DNA of 32,142 bases from Chitinophaga pinensis. Lineage in GTDB: Bacteria > Bacteroidota > Bacteroidia > NS11-12g > UBA955. The position numbers and the translations under genes are program-made. Shown here piece by piece: positions 2,338 through 7,832 of the stretch (positions within the stretch are counted from its first letter, which is position 1; each line of letters starts with the position of its first letter). Location of the stretch: the NCBI GenBank assembly GCA_945871905.1, contig CAMBXL010000008.1, forward strand, positions 1 to 32,142, given 5' to 3'. Below the pieces are notes generated by a model. The model did no database searches. It saw only the letters and a program-made list of their open reading frames with translations, and had not been told where the DNA came from.

Positions 2338-3150
2338 TTATAAAATGGCTTTTTTAACCCTGATTAGTTTTTCTAAAAGGGCTTCTAATTGTTCTAAAGG
2401 TAGCATGTTTGCGCCATCGCTTTTTGCTTCACTTGGGCGAGGATGGGTTTCTATAAATAAACCATCAGCACCAACAGCAATAGCCGCTTTTGCAATAGTT
2501 TCTATCAATTCCGGCAGTCCACCAGTAACACCACTCATCTGATTGGGTTGTTGCAAACTGTGAGTAATGTCCATTACCACAGGATAGTTGTTTTTTTTCA
2601 TCCAAGGAATGTTTCTAAAGTCAACCACCATGTCGCTGTAACCAAACATATTGCCACGTTCTGTTAATACAATATCGGAATTGCCGCTTTCTTCCACTTT
2701 TCTAACGGCATGTTCCATGGCATTGGCAGCCGCAAATTGACCTTTTTTAATATTAACCGTTTTGCCTGTTTTGGCAGCAGCCACCAATAAGTCTGTTTGT
2801 CTGAAAAGGAAAGCAGGTATTTGTAATACATCAACATAAGCCGCTGCCATTTCCGCTTCGTGAGCCTCGTGAATGTCTGTTACTGTAGGCACTTGAAAAT
2901 GTTTACCCACTTTTTGAAGAATTTCTAACGCTTTGATATCACCTATACCCGTAAAAGAATCCAAGCGTGAACGATTGGCTTTGCGGTATGATCCTTTGAA
3001 AATCCATGGAATTTCAAATTTGTTGGACAGATTGTTTAATTGACCCGCAATTTCAAAGGCTACCTCTTCGCTCTCTATTGCGCATGGTCCAGCCATTATG
3101 AAAAAATTAGGATTTTCGGTGTGTTTTAAAAAAGGGGTTTTGGGAAACAT
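2338..3150 (-). CDS. kdsA: 3-deoxy-8-phosphooctulonate synthase (Kdo-8-P synthase)
   Basis: Condenses phosphoenolpyruvate with arabinose 5-phosphate to give Kdo-8-phosphate, the precursor of the Kdo of LPS. The 270-residue protein has the expected length for the TIM barrel and the motifs GPCAIES (21-27), FKGSYRKANRSR (51-62), TDIHE (91-95), ERGNMFGY and IETHPRP. Cys23 replaces the Asn of E. coli KdsA, and His197, Glu234 and Asp245 complete the metal site, so this should be the metal-dependent class. The ATG is preceded by a good TTTG/TATTTTTG promoter with a very short leader. The DUF6629 gene follows after nine bases. The lptG-type permease nearby belongs to the same LPS pathway but is on the opposite strand. 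Confidence 0.96.
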   Translation of the reverse strand: MFPKTPFLKHTENPNFFIMAGPCAIESEEVAFEIAGQLNNLSNKFEIPWIFKGSYRKANRSRLDSFTGIGDIKALEILQKVGKHFQVPTVTDIHEAHEAEMAAAYVDVLQIPAFLFRQTDLLVAAAKTGKTVNIKKGQFAAANAMEHAVRKVEESGNSDIVLTERGNMFGYSDMVVDFRNIPWMKKNNYPVVMDITHSLQQPNQMSGVTGGLPELIETIAKAAIAVGADGLFIETHPRPSEAKSDGANMLPLEQLEALLEKLIRVKKAIL

Positions 3151-3220: not shown

Positions 3221-4918
3221 CTATCTGAAAGGGATAATCTGTTTGCTTTCAATGTCTTTGCTTTTCAGAATGACCACAATACTCTTTACTTTTCGGAATT
3301 TCTTATTCAGCAGTAACTCCTGATAAATTGTGTTGACCAATTGACTGTTAAACCATTCTCCTTTGTTTAGTGTAAAATTATTGATAGAATGTATTTTCTT
3401 TTTCTTTTTGATGAGCTCAATTTTTATTTCAATCGTTTGTTTATGTGCGCTTTTGAAATGGATATTTAAACTTTGATGAAACACCGCGTTAGGCTTGTTG
3501 TATAAATAATCGAGCAAAGAATCAGTATTAAGAATTGGCTTTCCAAGTATGTAGGAGGCCAATTGGAAATCGGGAATTCCATAACCGTATTTATCATCGG
3601 GAATTTGATAATGTGATGCACTTTTTTTGAGCGCAGTTAACAAAGTAGAGTATGGGATATGAGGAAATTGGATATAGAAATTGGCCATTGCCCCTGCAAA
3701 AATAGGGGTGGAGTATGAAGTGCCATTTCCGCGATAATAACCTTGAGGTGAAGTAACAATAGCTTGCTGTCCCATGGCTACAAAATCAGGTTTTATTCTG
3801 CCGTCAAAACTAGGGCCTTGTGAGCTAAAGTTGGCATAAAACCCTTCTTCATTAACCGCACCAATCGTTATGACATTAGCAGCATCCGCAGGAGTGCCGA
3901 TTTTTTTCCATTGCGACTGTCCTTCATTGCCGGCACTGTTTACGATGATAATTCCCTTTTTGAACGCAATTTCAGCGGCTTGCGCTATAAGGGTTATTTT
4001 TCCATCCAAATCTTGGTAGCGATGGCTCGTTTCAGGATGGTCGAATTGGTTATATCCCAATGAAGAGGAAATTAAATCAACCCCTAATTTTTCACTGTAT
4101 TCTGCGGCCAATATCCAATTGATTTCTTCGGTTAAATTTTCGTTTTTGGCATCTTCGGTTCGCATCAAATAAACCAAAGCATTGGGAGCAGTTCCATTGT
4201 AATTGTTGGGGTTAAACGTGTTAATGAAGCCAACACAATTTGCACCATGCTTGTCGTCTTCCCACACACTGTTGTCATTGTCTACAAAATCTTTAATGAC
4301 CACATCAGGGCTTAATAATTGGATTAATCCAGGGGTTTTGTAAGCCATGTAAAATCCTGCATCAAATACAGCAATAGTAGGGGTGGATAGGGTATTGTTT
4401 TCCCAATTTGTGCCTATCATTTCATTCTGTATTTTTGCCTTTCCCCATTGATTGGGTTTTAATGAATCTAAAGGGAGTTTGTATTGGAACTTCTCTATAT
4501 ATTCATTTTCAACAGTGTGAGGTTTGGGGGCTTTATCTCTTTTAATTTGGGCTAGGAATTGAATTTTCTTAACAAACGGTAGCGTTAATACTTTATTGGG
4601 GTCGAAGGTATTGGTGTTAAAAAACACTTTAACGCCGTTCAGCCATTTGGAAGCTTGTAAGACATTTAATTCTTTGAATTGTGCCAATTGTTCAATGTAA
4701 TAGGATGTTACAGGTAGGTCGAGCGAATCAAGTACTATGTTCTTGAGTTTTCTTTTATTTAGGGCTTTGTTACTTAAATATTGTTCAGGCTTTTGAAAAC
4801 TAAAGGGATTGTTTTGTTTGTCTTTGAAATAGATGAAATAGTAGGATATTGAATCTTGCGATTTTAAAGAGATGGAAATTAATAATACAGAAAGAACAAG
4901 TAGGGGTTTAAAAACCAT
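3221..4918 (-). CDS. Secreted subtilisin-like serine protease (S8 family)
   Basis: A 565-residue exported protease. A signal peptide (about 1-21, ending LKSQ) is followed by a region at 22-165 that may act as a propeptide, then the S8 catalytic domain. The triad is visible: Asp186 in AVFDAGF, His224 in DDKHGANC and Ser401 in GNGTSYSTP, with the oxyanion Asn331 in NSAGNEG. A short beta-rich tail ends the protein; it lacks the YPNP and GxYxxxI features of a T9SS type A sorting domain. It is the last gene of a three-gene unit and its ATG overlaps the upstream lipoprotein gene by 11 bases, so translation is probably coupled. The substrate is unknown. The family call is secure; the link to the lipoproteins is inference. 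Confidence 0.92.
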   Translation of the reverse strand: MVFKPLLVLSVLLISISLKSQDSISYYFIYFKDKQNNPFSFQKPEQYLSNKALNKRKLKNIVLDSLDLPVTSYYIEQLAQFKELNVLQASKWLNGVKVFFNTNTFDPNKVLTLPFVKKIQFLAQIKRDKAPKPHTVENEYIEKFQYKLPLDSLKPNQWGKAKIQNEMIGTNWENNTLSTPTIAVFDAGFYMAYKTPGLIQLLSPDVVIKDFVDNDNSVWEDDKHGANCVGFINTFNPNNYNGTAPNALVYLMRTEDAKNENLTEEINWILAAEYSEKLGVDLISSSLGYNQFDHPETSHRYQDLDGKITLIAQAAEIAFKKGIIIVNSAGNEGQSQWKKIGTPADAANVITIGAVNEEGFYANFSSQGPSFDGRIKPDFVAMGQQAIVTSPQGYYRGNGTSYSTPIFAGAMANFYIQFPHIPYSTLLTALKKSASHYQIPDDKYGYGIPDFQLASYILGKPILNTDSLLDYLYNKPNAVFHQSLNIHFKSAHKQTIEIKIELIKKKKKIHSINNFTLNKGEWFNSQLVNTIYQELLLNKKFRKVKSIVVILKSKDIESKQIIPFR

Positions 4919-5579
4919 GATTTATAAGAGTATATTTAATTTTATATCCGCGTGTTTTGTTATTGGATTTTTCAATAAAAATAATGTTTGAATAAATTAG
5001 GCCAATGTGTTTGGCATAGAATTCTTCGTAATATCTTTCGCCAACAGAATTAAAAATGGGGTCACTTTTTATAACCAAAACACTGTCATACGTTTGGTTG
5101 TTGATTTTTTTTCTAGCATTAATTTCGCTGTAGTAAACCAATGTGTTATTGTTACTGTTAAAAGTATTGGCGTTCCATATGGTTTCAAAAGTGATAGGAA
5201 AGGAGAGTTTTACTTTTTTGGTATTGTTTTCGTTTCTTTCGTATTTGTACTTGTCAATACGTGAGCTTACTGTTTCGTGATAATTCCATAATGCACTGTC
5301 TTTTTTGCGTTTGTATCTTTCAATACGCATTACAGCTTGGTTTAGATTGTCGTAGAATACAGTATCATTTTTTTCGAGGATTTGATAATTGAAGGTGTCA
5401 ACTGTATTAAAAAAATCGTCGTATATAATTTCTTGTACTTGGTATAAAAAGGTATAATTCAAGGATTGATTAACATAAGAAACGCCTATTTCTCTTTTAG
5501 AATTGTCAACAATATCTTTTTTGCACGCGTTTAACAGCAATACTACCAAAATATTCCAAAATAGAAAACGGATATTCAT
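4908..5579 (-). CDS. Lipoprotein, paralogue of the gene upstream
   Basis: A 223-residue predicted lipoprotein with lipobox LLNAC (Cys19) after a hydrophobic signal. I do not recognise a named family. It aligns by eye with the 229-residue product of the upstream gene: a DxFFNTVDT-like segment, KVKLSFPI against EVKLYFPI, and YEEFYAKHIGLIY against REEIYAKGIGLIY. The two are therefore tandem paralogues. The charged, beta-rich body suggests a periplasmic or surface domain. The ATG overlaps the upstream TGA (ATGA), and the 3' end overlaps the subtilase by 11 bases. It could be a partner, inhibitor, chaperone or anchor of the protease; nothing in the sequence decides this. Confidence 0.8.
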   Translation of the reverse strand: MNIRFLFWNILVVLLLNACKKDIVDNSKREIGVSYVNQSLNYTFLYQVQEIIYDDFFNTVDTFNYQILEKNDTVFYDNLNQAVMRIERYKRKKDSALWNYHETVSSRIDKYKYERNENNTKKVKLSFPITFETIWNANTFNSNNNTLVYYSEINARKKINNQTYDSVLVIKSDPIFNSVGERYYEEFYAKHIGLIYSNIIFIEKSNNKTRGYKIKYTLINHGF

Positions 5580-6265
5580 CGTTTTAGTTTAAGAAAGATT
5601 TCTTTGCCCGAACGAGTAAAGGAGTCTTTTGTGTTTTTTGTGGTATAGTCCGAGGAATCAATATGCTTGTAAATTAAACCGATGCCTTTGGCATATATTT
5701 CTTCTCGATAGTCGTTTTTTATGCCTGAAATAGGTCTGCTTAGTTGAACATTAACACAATTAGTATAAGGAACCGTATTTACAGATTGGTTGTAGAATAC
5801 ACGATTGTATTTGATGTATTTAGGTTCAAATTGGTTGAACATATTCAAATTCCAAGCATAGGTGGAACCTCTGGTTTTGTATGAGCTGATAGGGAAATAA
5901 AGTTTTACTTCTGAGATATTGTCCTTGACTTCGATGGCATAATTGCCTTTAATTTTTCGGTAAAAGCTTTGAAAAACAATCCATCTAAAGGTGTTTTTAT
6001 TGTAGGTACTTAACTCAATTCTGTAAATAGTGTCATTTGTTAAATCAACCAGTTTTTCAACTACTTCCTCCTTGAGAACTGTTGAAACAGTATCCGTTTT
6101 ATTGAAAAAAGGGTCAAAGAAAAAAGAATCAACATCGTAATATAAAACGGTTCCCACTTTCAACGGAAAGTAATCCGAGCCTTTAGATTCTCTGACTTCT
6201 TCTTTCTTTTTGCATGAACTGACAAAAAAACTCACCAGCAAAATGAGAATAAACGGATTTTTCAT
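5576..6265 (-). CDS. Lipoprotein, first gene of the subtilase operon
   Basis: A 229-residue predicted lipoprotein with lipobox VSSC (Cys18) followed by a lysine/glutamate-rich linker. The body starts with YFPLKVGTVLYYDVDSF, typical of small beta-rich Bacteroidota lipoproteins with a repeated strand-turn pattern. It shares the FFNxxDT, VKLxFPI and EExYAKxIGLIY segments with the next gene, so the pair arose by duplication. The stop codon overlaps the next start by four bases (ATGA). Upstream is a 67-base divergent region shared with folD that carries a TAAATTTG box for this strand. Function unknown; the gene is well supported by signal peptide, overlap and paralogy. Confidence 0.8.
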   Translation of the reverse strand: MKNPFILILLVSFFVSSCKKKEEVRESKGSDYFPLKVGTVLYYDVDSFFFDPFFNKTDTVSTVLKEEVVEKLVDLTNDTIYRIELSTYNKNTFRWIVFQSFYRKIKGNYAIEVKDNISEVKLYFPISSYKTRGSTYAWNLNMFNQFEPKYIKYNRVFYNQSVNTVPYTNCVNVQLSRPISGIKNDYREEIYAKGIGLIYKHIDSSDYTTKNTKDSFTRSGKEIFLKLKR

Positions 6266-6332: not shown

Positions 6333-7220
6333 ATGGTTTTATTAGACGGGAAATATACATCGGAATTGGTAAAAAATCGCATTAAGAATGAGATGGCTGA
6401 GATGCAAACTAAAGGATTACGAAAGCCACATTTAGTTGCAATTTTGGTTGGGAGTGATGGTGCTAGTAAAACTTATGTAGAGAGTAAAGAACGCAATTGT
6501 CAATTGGTAGGTTTCGATTCAACAATTATTCGTTTAGACGACTCAACCAGTGAAAATGATTTAGTGCAACTCATAGAAAAATTAAATATTGACAATCATA
6601 TCGATGGAATTTTAGTTCAATTTCCACTACCTAAGCAAATTAGTGAAAATAAAATTACTCAAACAATTGCACCTCACAAAGATGTGGATGGTTTTCATGA
6701 TGTAAATATGGGTAAATTAGCCAAAGGGGAATCGGGTTTTGTGCCAGCTACACCTCTTGGAATTACCATGATGTTGGAAGCCTATAACATTGAAACTGCT
6801 GGAAAACATTGTGTTGTGATTGGTCGTAGTAATATTGTAGGTCGTCCTATGAGTTTGTTAATGTCTAATAGCGCTCCCTACGGCAATTGTACGGTAACTT
6901 TGTGTCACAGTAAAACCGTTCATTTAGAGCATTTTACCAGACAAGCCGATATTCTTATTGTTGCTTTGGGCAAACCAGGTTTTGTAAAAGCCAATATGGT
7001 GAAACCCAATGCCGTTGTTATTGATGTTGGTATTACTCGTGTGGAAGATTCAACCCGCAAAAATGGATTTTATTTGAAAGGCGATGTGGATTTTAATGAA
7101 GTAAAAGAAGTTGCGTCTCACCTGACTCCCGTTCCTGGGGGTGTTGGTTTAATGACAATTGCTGCATTGCTCGAAAATACACTTAAGGCCTACAAGTTTC
7201 AGTTAAAACAAACGTTATAA
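6333..7220 (+). CDS. folD: Bifunctional methylenetetrahydrofolate dehydrogenase / methenyltetrahydrofolate cyclohydrolase
   Basis: Interconverts 5,10-methylene-, 5,10-methenyl- and 10-formyl-tetrahydrofolate in the cytoplasm, feeding purine and formyl-methionine synthesis. The 295 residues match the usual FolD length. Visible motifs are YVESKER with Tyr48 and the catalytic Lys52, VQFPLP, KDVDGFH, PATPLGI, the NADP-binding GRSNIVGRP and the C-terminal PGGVGLMT. The ATG is followed at once by the expected N-terminal strand. queE begins three bases after the stop, so the two form an operon, although their pathways are separate. Confidence 0.97.
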   Translation: MVLLDGKYTSELVKNRIKNEMAEMQTKGLRKPHLVAILVGSDGASKTYVESKERNCQLVGFDSTIIRLDDSTSENDLVQLIEKLNIDNHIDGILVQFPLPKQISENKITQTIAPHKDVDGFHDVNMGKLAKGESGFVPATPLGITMMLEAYNIETAGKHCVVIGRSNIVGRPMSLLMSNSAPYGNCTVTLCHSKTVHLEHFTRQADILIVALGKPGFVKANMVKPNAVVIDVGITRVEDSTRKNGFYLKGDVDFNEVKEVASHLTPVPGGVGLMTIAALLENTLKAYKFQLKQTL

Positions 7221-7223
7221 AAC

Positions 7224-7832
7224 ATGTCTATGCAAGCTTTATTTCCAGTGATGGAGCATTTTTATACCATTCAAGGGGAAGGTTTTTATACTGGAAATGC
7301 CGCTTATTTTATTAGATTAGGGGGCTGTGATGTGGGTTGTGTTTGGTGCGATGTTAAAGAAAGTTGGGATGCTAGTATTCACCCTCAAGTATCCATAGAA
7401 ACTATGGTGGATTGGGTTAAACAAAGTGGGTCGCCATTGTGCGTGATTACAGGAGGTGAACCTGCTATGTATGATTTGACCGACTTAGTTAATGCCCTTC
7501 ACAATGAAGGAATTAAAGTAAATATAGAAACATCGGGGGCATACGAAATTAAAGGGGATTATGATTGGATTTGCCTTTCACCCAAAAAGTTCAAGTTCCC
7601 AATTTTGTCTTCTTTGTTTAAAGCAAATGAATTCAAAGTGGTAGTATTTCACCCTTCTGATATTCAATGGGCAGAATCTTTTAAGAAAGACCTGAATGAG
7701 AGTTGTTTGCTGTATTTTCAACCGGAATGGAGTAAATCTGAGCAAAACTTACCCTTGATTATAAACTATGTGAAAGCACATGCCGAGTGGCAAATTTCAT
7801 TGCAAACACACAAATACATGAATATTCCTTAG
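7224..7832 (+). CDS. queE: 7-carboxy-7-deazaguanine synthase (radical SAM)
   Basis: Radical SAM enzyme converting 6-carboxy-tetrahydropterin to 7-carboxy-7-deazaguanine in the preQ0/queuosine pathway. The 202-residue protein has the iron-sulfur motif CxxxCxxC (Cys35, Cys39, Cys42 in GGCDVGCVWC), the preceding TIQGEG substrate loop and the TGGEP SAM-binding motif. Its partner QueD, which makes the substrate, is encoded about 360 bases downstream on the other strand. It is the second gene of the folD unit and ends 19 bases from the convergent ftsB-like gene. Confidence 0.95.
   Translation: MSMQALFPVMEHFYTIQGEGFYTGNAAYFIRLGGCDVGCVWCDVKESWDASIHPQVSIETMVDWVKQSGSPLCVITGGEPAMYDLTDLVNALHNEGIKVNIETSGAYEIKGDYDWICLSPKKFKFPILSSLFKANEFKVVVFHPSDIQWAESFKKDLNESCLLYFQPEWSKSEQNLPLIINYVKAHAEWQISLQTHKYMNIP

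Follow-up and report, generated by a model that had tools for sequence, protein, structure and literature searches.

What do two small lipoproteins do beside a secreted protease whose gene overlaps with theirs? The question is raised by a stretch of 32,142 nucleotides from Chitinophaga pinensis (assembly GCA_945871905.1, contig CAMBXL010000008.1; class Bacteroidia, order NS11-12g, family UBA955), which is called here, in its full length, the window. In it, the genes for two lipoproteins, A and B, run into the gene for a subtilase (peptidase S8). A preliminary description, made from the sequence alone, had proposed the three as an undescribed functional unit. We conclude that lipoprotein and protease are very probably functional partners, and that the pair is real, conserved and apparently undescribed: the lipoproteins are strongly supported paralogues, they mostly lie beside the protease, and no paper on a lipoprotein-subtilase pair was found by title or abstract start in a limited library. 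The coordinates, the minus strand and the overlaps of 4 and 11 bases were all recovered as first described. Here T9SS is the type IX secretion system, ORF an open reading frame and aa amino acids.

5576..6265, minus strand: lipoprotein A of 229 aa; heads the array; has a signal peptide and lipid cysteine C18.
4908..5579, minus strand: lipoprotein B, 223 aa; adjoins the protease gene; signal peptide with lipid cysteine C19.
3221..4918, minus strand: subtilase of 565 aa (peptidase S8, PF00082) with a signal peptide; catalytic D186/H224/S401.
3224..3571, minus strand: protease tail, the last 116 residues; putative remnant of a T9SS type A sorting tail, rich in lysine (net charge +11).
5576..5579, minus strand: last 4 bases of A, shared with the start of B; probable translational coupling; identical in 9 of 11 genus loci that were read at length, out of 17 genomes sampled for the genus.
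4908..4918, minus strand: last 11 bases of B, shared with the start of the protease gene; probable translational coupling; identical in 8 of the 11 genus loci, the others having 8, 44 and 119 (the last two from longest-ORF starts, probably too early).

The evidence for partnership comes from the whole class. In what follows, A2 denotes an alignment, and the profile made from it, of 62 lipoproteins, and LIP the lipoprotein profile. LIP matches 251 of 325 class genomes at E 1e-6, five of the matches being weaker than 1e-7, and the protease matches 265 of 325 (E 1e-30). Gene order was followed in the 140 genomes with the strongest lipoprotein matches, the other 111 of the 251 lying outside the count; some genomes are incomplete. 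The lipoprotein gene is directly upstream of the S8 gene on the same strand in 93, nearby with small genes between in 4, apart from it in 39 and at a contig end in 4. The preliminary description had suggested counting how often homologues sit beside an S8 protease; the answer is 93 of 136 placed genomes (those at a contig end set aside; 97 with the four nearby), so the lipoproteins are not mostly found without it. The direct pair is present in 36 of 43 families represented in the 140 genomes. Viewed from the protease side, a lipoprotein is directly upstream in 18 of the 34 regions examined (of 53 class regions), 7 of the 34 having been picked because no lipoprotein had been reported there. Beyond the class the family fades: the A2 profile matches 65 of 296 phylum genomes (E 1e-3), with strong full-length matches confined to the window's class; matches outside it stay below 33 bits, and all but one begin N-terminally and cover at most about 140 positions.

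Part of this linkage is inherited: of 58 class loci, 36 have mnmA immediately ahead of the pair, 21 have something else there and one ends at a contig edge. The identity of mnmA was confirmed in example loci using Pfam and NCBIfam. The same count is what could be said for regarding mnmA, lipoprotein and protease as an old gene order devoid of functional meaning, a reading that we consider most improbable, given that lipoprotein and S8 also stay together away from mnmA, and that the overlaps are kept in the genus. In all, the pair follows mnmA in 36 loci, is divergent from folD in 26, has other neighbours in 26 and meets a contig edge in 1; 31 paired loci fall within the order, 26 of them divergent from folD and 5 elsewhere. 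The pair thus seems to have an ancestral address, mnmA-LIP-S8, and to have moved as a unit. One locus (L228:1665-3461, in G358) has MnmA and a complete lipoprotein in a single 598-residue frame followed by a second lipoprotein gene, which is either a fusion, a lost stop or an assembly error.

The two lipoproteins of the window are paralogues. In a single BLASTP comparison they align over 196 columns with 27% identity (E 3e-17), and all three segments that had been named as shared lie inside that one alignment. Read directly, both N-termini are hydrophobic signals that end with a cysteine of lipobox type, C18 for A and C19 for B, and this cysteine column is invariant across the 62 rows of A2. 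The mature proteins are about 205-212 aa long. As had been said of them, they match no nameable family: neither A nor B has a Pfam or NCBIfam match above cut-off, the sub-threshold ones including DUF6981 (E 0.019) and Riean_0653_fam (E 0.012). A Pfam scan of the 62 members (E 0.1) listed 18 families, none matched by more than one member and the LolA and LolB models not among them; the NCBIfam scan was limited to A and B themselves. For a family matched in about three quarters of the sampled class genomes (251 of 325), these scans yielded neither a curated Pfam model nor an assigned function, and its usual partner suggests a function that can be tested. The Capnocytophaga-type surface export signal is described as C-X-K-(D/E)2 after the cysteine (PMC5080379). 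Under a rough rule for calling the cysteine, which misplaced some, a K or R at +3 followed by two acidic residues is seen in 5 of 23 B-type proteins of the order; the count is 1 of 45 among the order's other members and 4 of 112 among those from the class.

The number of lipoproteins varies. Genus, family and order together gave 59 genomes, of which 52 have a protease match (E 1e-3, distant subtilases included), 47 a B match and 46 an A match (E 0.01; relatives of A are also found with B, and vice versa). An iterated profile collected 68 lipoprotein genes from 40 regions and the window. Within the 17 genus genomes, G004 has one lipoprotein match only and G008 none. Before the protease of 33 order loci there are four copies in 1, three in 2, two in 20, one in 8 and none within the distance limit in 2. 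Elsewhere in the class a single copy is the rule (47 of 52 LIP-linked loci; 4 members of this set, A4, have two or three small genes between), and two to four copies occur in 1 of 52 loci as against 23 of 33 in the order. The preliminary description had taken the overlaps to suggest fixed stoichiometry. The overlaps are real, but a fixed set of two lipoproteins is not supported, and the two-lipoprotein form is, because copy number varies and is mostly one outside the order, a lineage variant of an apparently older pair with one lipoprotein. Between lipoprotein and protease, locus L082 (7425-8168) carries a 247-residue frame with no Pfam match, possibly a far-diverged lipoprotein copy.

In a tree of 93 lipoproteins, obtained by a quick search without bootstrap and having long branches, the 11 protease-adjacent genes of the genus, B included, form one clade (Shimodaira-Hasegawa-like approximate likelihood ratio test, SH-aLRT, 96), and the 11 first genes, A included, form a separate one (SH-aLRT 100); six of the 17 genus genomes lie outside the tree (G002, G004, G005, G006, G008 and G011). 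The A/B split therefore predates the genus and the order of the two genes has been kept. B also groups with five of the six protease-adjacent genes from other genera of the family (98), the sixth, L104, falling outside the B group. Extra middle lipoproteins in three g17 genomes (L084:7018-8335, L085:9747-10406 and L086:8200-8877) make up a distinct long-branched clade (SH-aLRT 100).

Structure prediction offers a lead on B. The models, each built from 4 sequences, have a predicted local distance difference test score (pLDDT) of 46.9 for A and 56.1 for mature B. At this low confidence, B is modelled as all-beta with one short helix only, and 27 of the 50 structural neighbours listed for it are, by their titles, LolA, LolB or RseB/MucB entries. 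The best Z is 8.6 (the YmcC-like 3fzx), close to the 7-8 that the search tool itself states to be common, and LolB of P. gingivalis (9tpm) has Z 8.3, a root mean square deviation of 3.6 and 154 aligned positions. The best Foldseek match of B is a LolA-superfamily entry (E 5e-4, TM-score 0.24), and the neighbours of the A model are different ones. A LolA/LolB-like fold of B is therefore a lead, suggestive at best. LolB homologues of Bacteroidota are reported to have escaped sequence searches, and LolB1 of F. johnsoniae matters for T9SS (PMC11885536).

These models bear on the proposal that the lipoproteins act independently in the outer membrane, for instance by LolB-like lipid binding, and have no more than a loose operon association with the protease. 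It draws support from the 39 of 136 genomes in which lipoprotein and protease are separate, mnmA still preceding the lipoprotein in 31 of these. The all-beta model of B would agree with it, except that its pLDDT is 56, that its Z values come near to what is common, that the Foldseek TM-score is low and that the A model disagrees. Since, in addition, none of the 62 members matches a LolA or LolB family in Pfam and the pair is kept together across different neighbourhoods, we consider independent action unlikely. Where the protease is missing, no steady alternative partner was seen: of ten neighbours, four had no NCBIfam match, and those identified (two of them oligopeptidase B, the others PepO, a RecD-like helicase and an acyl-CoA ligase) show no common theme. 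The orphan lipoprotein gene of G594 has a stop inside its match. In six genomes of genus g16 a single lipoprotein gene lies beside folD with no adjacent protease seen, the sequence of one, L074, ending 445 bases past the gene. In both sampled genomes of family f12, a second lipoprotein gene with no S8 gene adjacent lies tail-to-tail with a putative gene for the T9SS sortase PorU2 (NF052324; L153:3718-7793 in G307 and L157:3965-7897 in G248).

The protease itself is a clear subtilase, matching PF00082 with E 2.1e-36 and 126.2 bits against a gathering score of 21.8. The triad D186/H224/S401 and the oxyanion residue N331 are present and do not vary among 118 aligned S8 ORFs, 15 of which come from small loci and possibly repeat a genome. 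The preliminary description had noted that it lacks a T9SS sorting domain. This is so for the window and for the order, where none of 33 proteases matches the sorting-tail model TIGR04183 (E 0.01), but not as a general state, because 47 of the 52 LIP-linked class proteases outside the order (set A4) carry the tail. The 70 full-length class proteases are made up of these 52, of 15 in a second set, A5, and of 3 in neither. The 3 are L278 and L279, each with an unassigned gene of lipoprotein size upstream, and L283, with an rRNA methyltransferase upstream. The tail is found in 11 of the 15 A5 proteases; 13 of the 15 have no lipoprotein upstream, and L284 and L290 do have one.

The C-terminus of the order proteases appears to be what is left of that tail. 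When the 33 order C-termini were compared with 48 from the class (4 of the 52, lacking the cutting motif, being dropped), hhalign gave a probability of 96.9 and E 1.6e-10; the C-terminus of the window protease scores 14.8 bits in a model of the class C-termini (E 3.8e-5, 33 sequences). The order C-termini are lysine-rich, with a median net charge of +7 as against 0 in the class. The decay is graded, the best of the order in the class model (L104 with 28 bits, L082 with 20) overlapping the weakest of A5 (L272 with 25). Judged from these sequence comparisons, the tail is a decayed T9SS type A sorting tail, the decay being specific to the order. A lineage-wide loss of T9SS is ruled out as its cause, by the presence of SprA in 40 of 40 genomes tested (31 in the order, 9 outside) and of sorting tails in all 40, from 41 to at least 109 per genome and 83 in that of the window. 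Since the order genomes keep T9SS, the loss is specific to this protease, and provides a natural experiment on an enzyme that may no longer be exported.

If the tag has gone, the lipoprotein could be a membrane scaffold or anchor that captures the protease, perhaps by its lysine-rich decayed tail, and replaces the T9SS attachment with no inhibition involved. The failure of all 33 order members to match the tail model, the higher tail charge, the larger lipoprotein arrays and the retention of T9SS, by which the loss concerns the protease alone, are all as this would have it. Yet the tailed proteases have the lipoprotein too (the 47 of 52 above), and anchoring is therefore unlikely to be its ancestral job. 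Within the order, the lipoproteins are not clearly acidic, the last 200 residues having a median net charge of -1 in B types and 0 in the others, and 8 of the 33 loci combine a lost tail with a single lipoprotein. We hold anchoring to be rather doubtful. It is improbable that the lipoproteins are substrates that the protease cuts or sheds at the membrane, an idea to which the co-encoded, coupled genes and a variable, linker-like stretch after the lipid cysteine (in the part of A2 inspected) lend some appeal. No motif was seen in that stretch by eye, no dedicated motif search having been made, and the orphans keep the same conserved columns as the linked proteins.

Besides anchoring, the preliminary description had thought of inhibiting, maturing or serving the protease. 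Potempins are described as lipoproteins of Tannerella whose genes lie directly before those of the KLIKK proteases and which inhibit these proteases (PMC7296668). We favour the analogous reading for the present pair, because the gene arrangement is the same, and propose, tentatively and with somewhat less than even confidence, that the lipoprotein is a guardian of the subtilase, either an inhibitor or a holdase. The scheme would be as follows. The lipoprotein gene comes first on the shared message, with the intact subtilase following from a start that overlaps it or lies nearby, and its product would be lipidated and located in the envelope, probably at the outer membrane. There it would serve as a dedicated partner of the subtilase, most likely by binding the enzyme or its proform, and would keep it inactive or held until export or need, so that the envelope is spared from digestion. 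The triad is intact in 118 of 118 ORFs, which suggests that the protease has to be restrained while in transit. Throughout most of the class, it would then leave through T9SS by its sorting tail. In the order, it probably stays in the envelope because the tail has decayed, with the lipoprotein often in two to four copies, B beside the protease and A first. The further proposal that this is a former T9SS surface protease, now without its sorting tag and resident in the envelope, under the direct control of B, with A doing a separate job, is speculative and we give it a minority chance. If true, there would be, beyond a guardian family without a name that is found class-wide, an order in which a secreted protease was switched from export to retention. 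Few cases are known to us, the potempins, in which T9SS bacteria protect their own envelope from secreted proteases before export, and a class-wide partner family would generalise that question.

Co-variation is consistent with the partnership. Pairwise distances of S8 and lipoprotein correlate with rho 0.67 over 30 loci with MnmA and 0.61 over 25 loci with FolD; the partial rho is 0.58 given MnmA (n=30) and 0.42 given FolD (n=25), with none of 1000 permutations as high, and a fast rate shared by S8 and lipoprotein relative to the slow reference may explain part of the correlation. This caveat is one of several points that weigh against a guardian. Chief among them, the lipoprotein occurs without an adjacent protease in 39 of the 136 placed genomes, and 31 of the 39 still have mnmA directly upstream of it. 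At least 7 of the 140 genomes have no protease match at E 1e-30, and in two that carry an orphan lipoprotein, G065 and G327, no match to this protease was found; a dedicated inhibitor would have no reason to stay in protease-less genomes. Orphan and linked lipoproteins conserve the same columns, with no clear differing residues and no protease-binding signature. The mostly tailed proteases of A5 largely do without the lipoprotein. Compared with solved structures, the A2 profile found one PDB chain, through the signal peptide and at E 0.33, and thus no likeness to a solved inhibitor. The orphans fit a second, protease-independent role, perhaps that of A, since the single lipoprotein of g16 groups outside B. 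The account given for the order is likewise weakened: tail loss and higher copy number coincide in a single order, hence possibly through one event; the 8 single-copy loci lack the tail all the same; and in a family outside the order (L234:2840-4456, in G596) the protease has likewise lost its tail, is lysine-rich at the C-terminus and stands beside a single lipoprotein.

Three neighbouring genes of the window complete the locus:

2338-3150, minus strand: DAHP-synthase-family gene (Pfam match), downstream of the protease; kdsA-like, and presumably kdsA.
6333-7220, divergent from A: folD (Pfam match).
7224-7832, divergent from A: radical-SAM gene (Pfam match); queE-like, and taken by us to be queE.

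Lipopolysaccharide genes recur around the unit. Besides the kdsA-like gene after the protease, there is an LptF/LptG gene at 246-1691 of the window, whose end is overlapped on the opposite strand by a DUF6629 family gene (1672-2328). In genus g8 an LptF/LptG permease gene lies directly before the lipoprotein array on the same strand (L106:9479-10606 and L107:5930-7012).

Three known systems invite comparison. The low-confidence B model resembles the LolA, LolB and RseB fold proteins in its overall beta arrangement; it differs from them in lacking a match to any sequence family, and in being a weak model whose one short helix is its only helix. The T9SS type A cargo subtilases, which combine S8 with Por_Secre_tail, belong to the same protease subfamily, and most LIP-linked relatives outside the order are of this type, whereas the window protease and 32 others of the order fail the tail model. 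A further parallel is with the potempins. In the potempin/KLIKK pairs of T. forsythia, too, the gene of a small lipoprotein lies immediately ahead of that of a secreted protease (PMC7296668; PMC4404884). Protease and lipoprotein sequence coverage were also correlated across Tannerella strains, which that work reads as possible coevolution (PMC7296668). Potempin structures are absent among the fold matches listed here, and the profile matched no solved chain beyond the signal peptide. Potempins are smaller than the LIP proteins with their mature length of about 205-212 aa. Unlike the potempin/KLIKK pairs, the family described here spans a whole class, includes tandem paralogues and accompanies a protease whose sorting tail has apparently decayed in one order.

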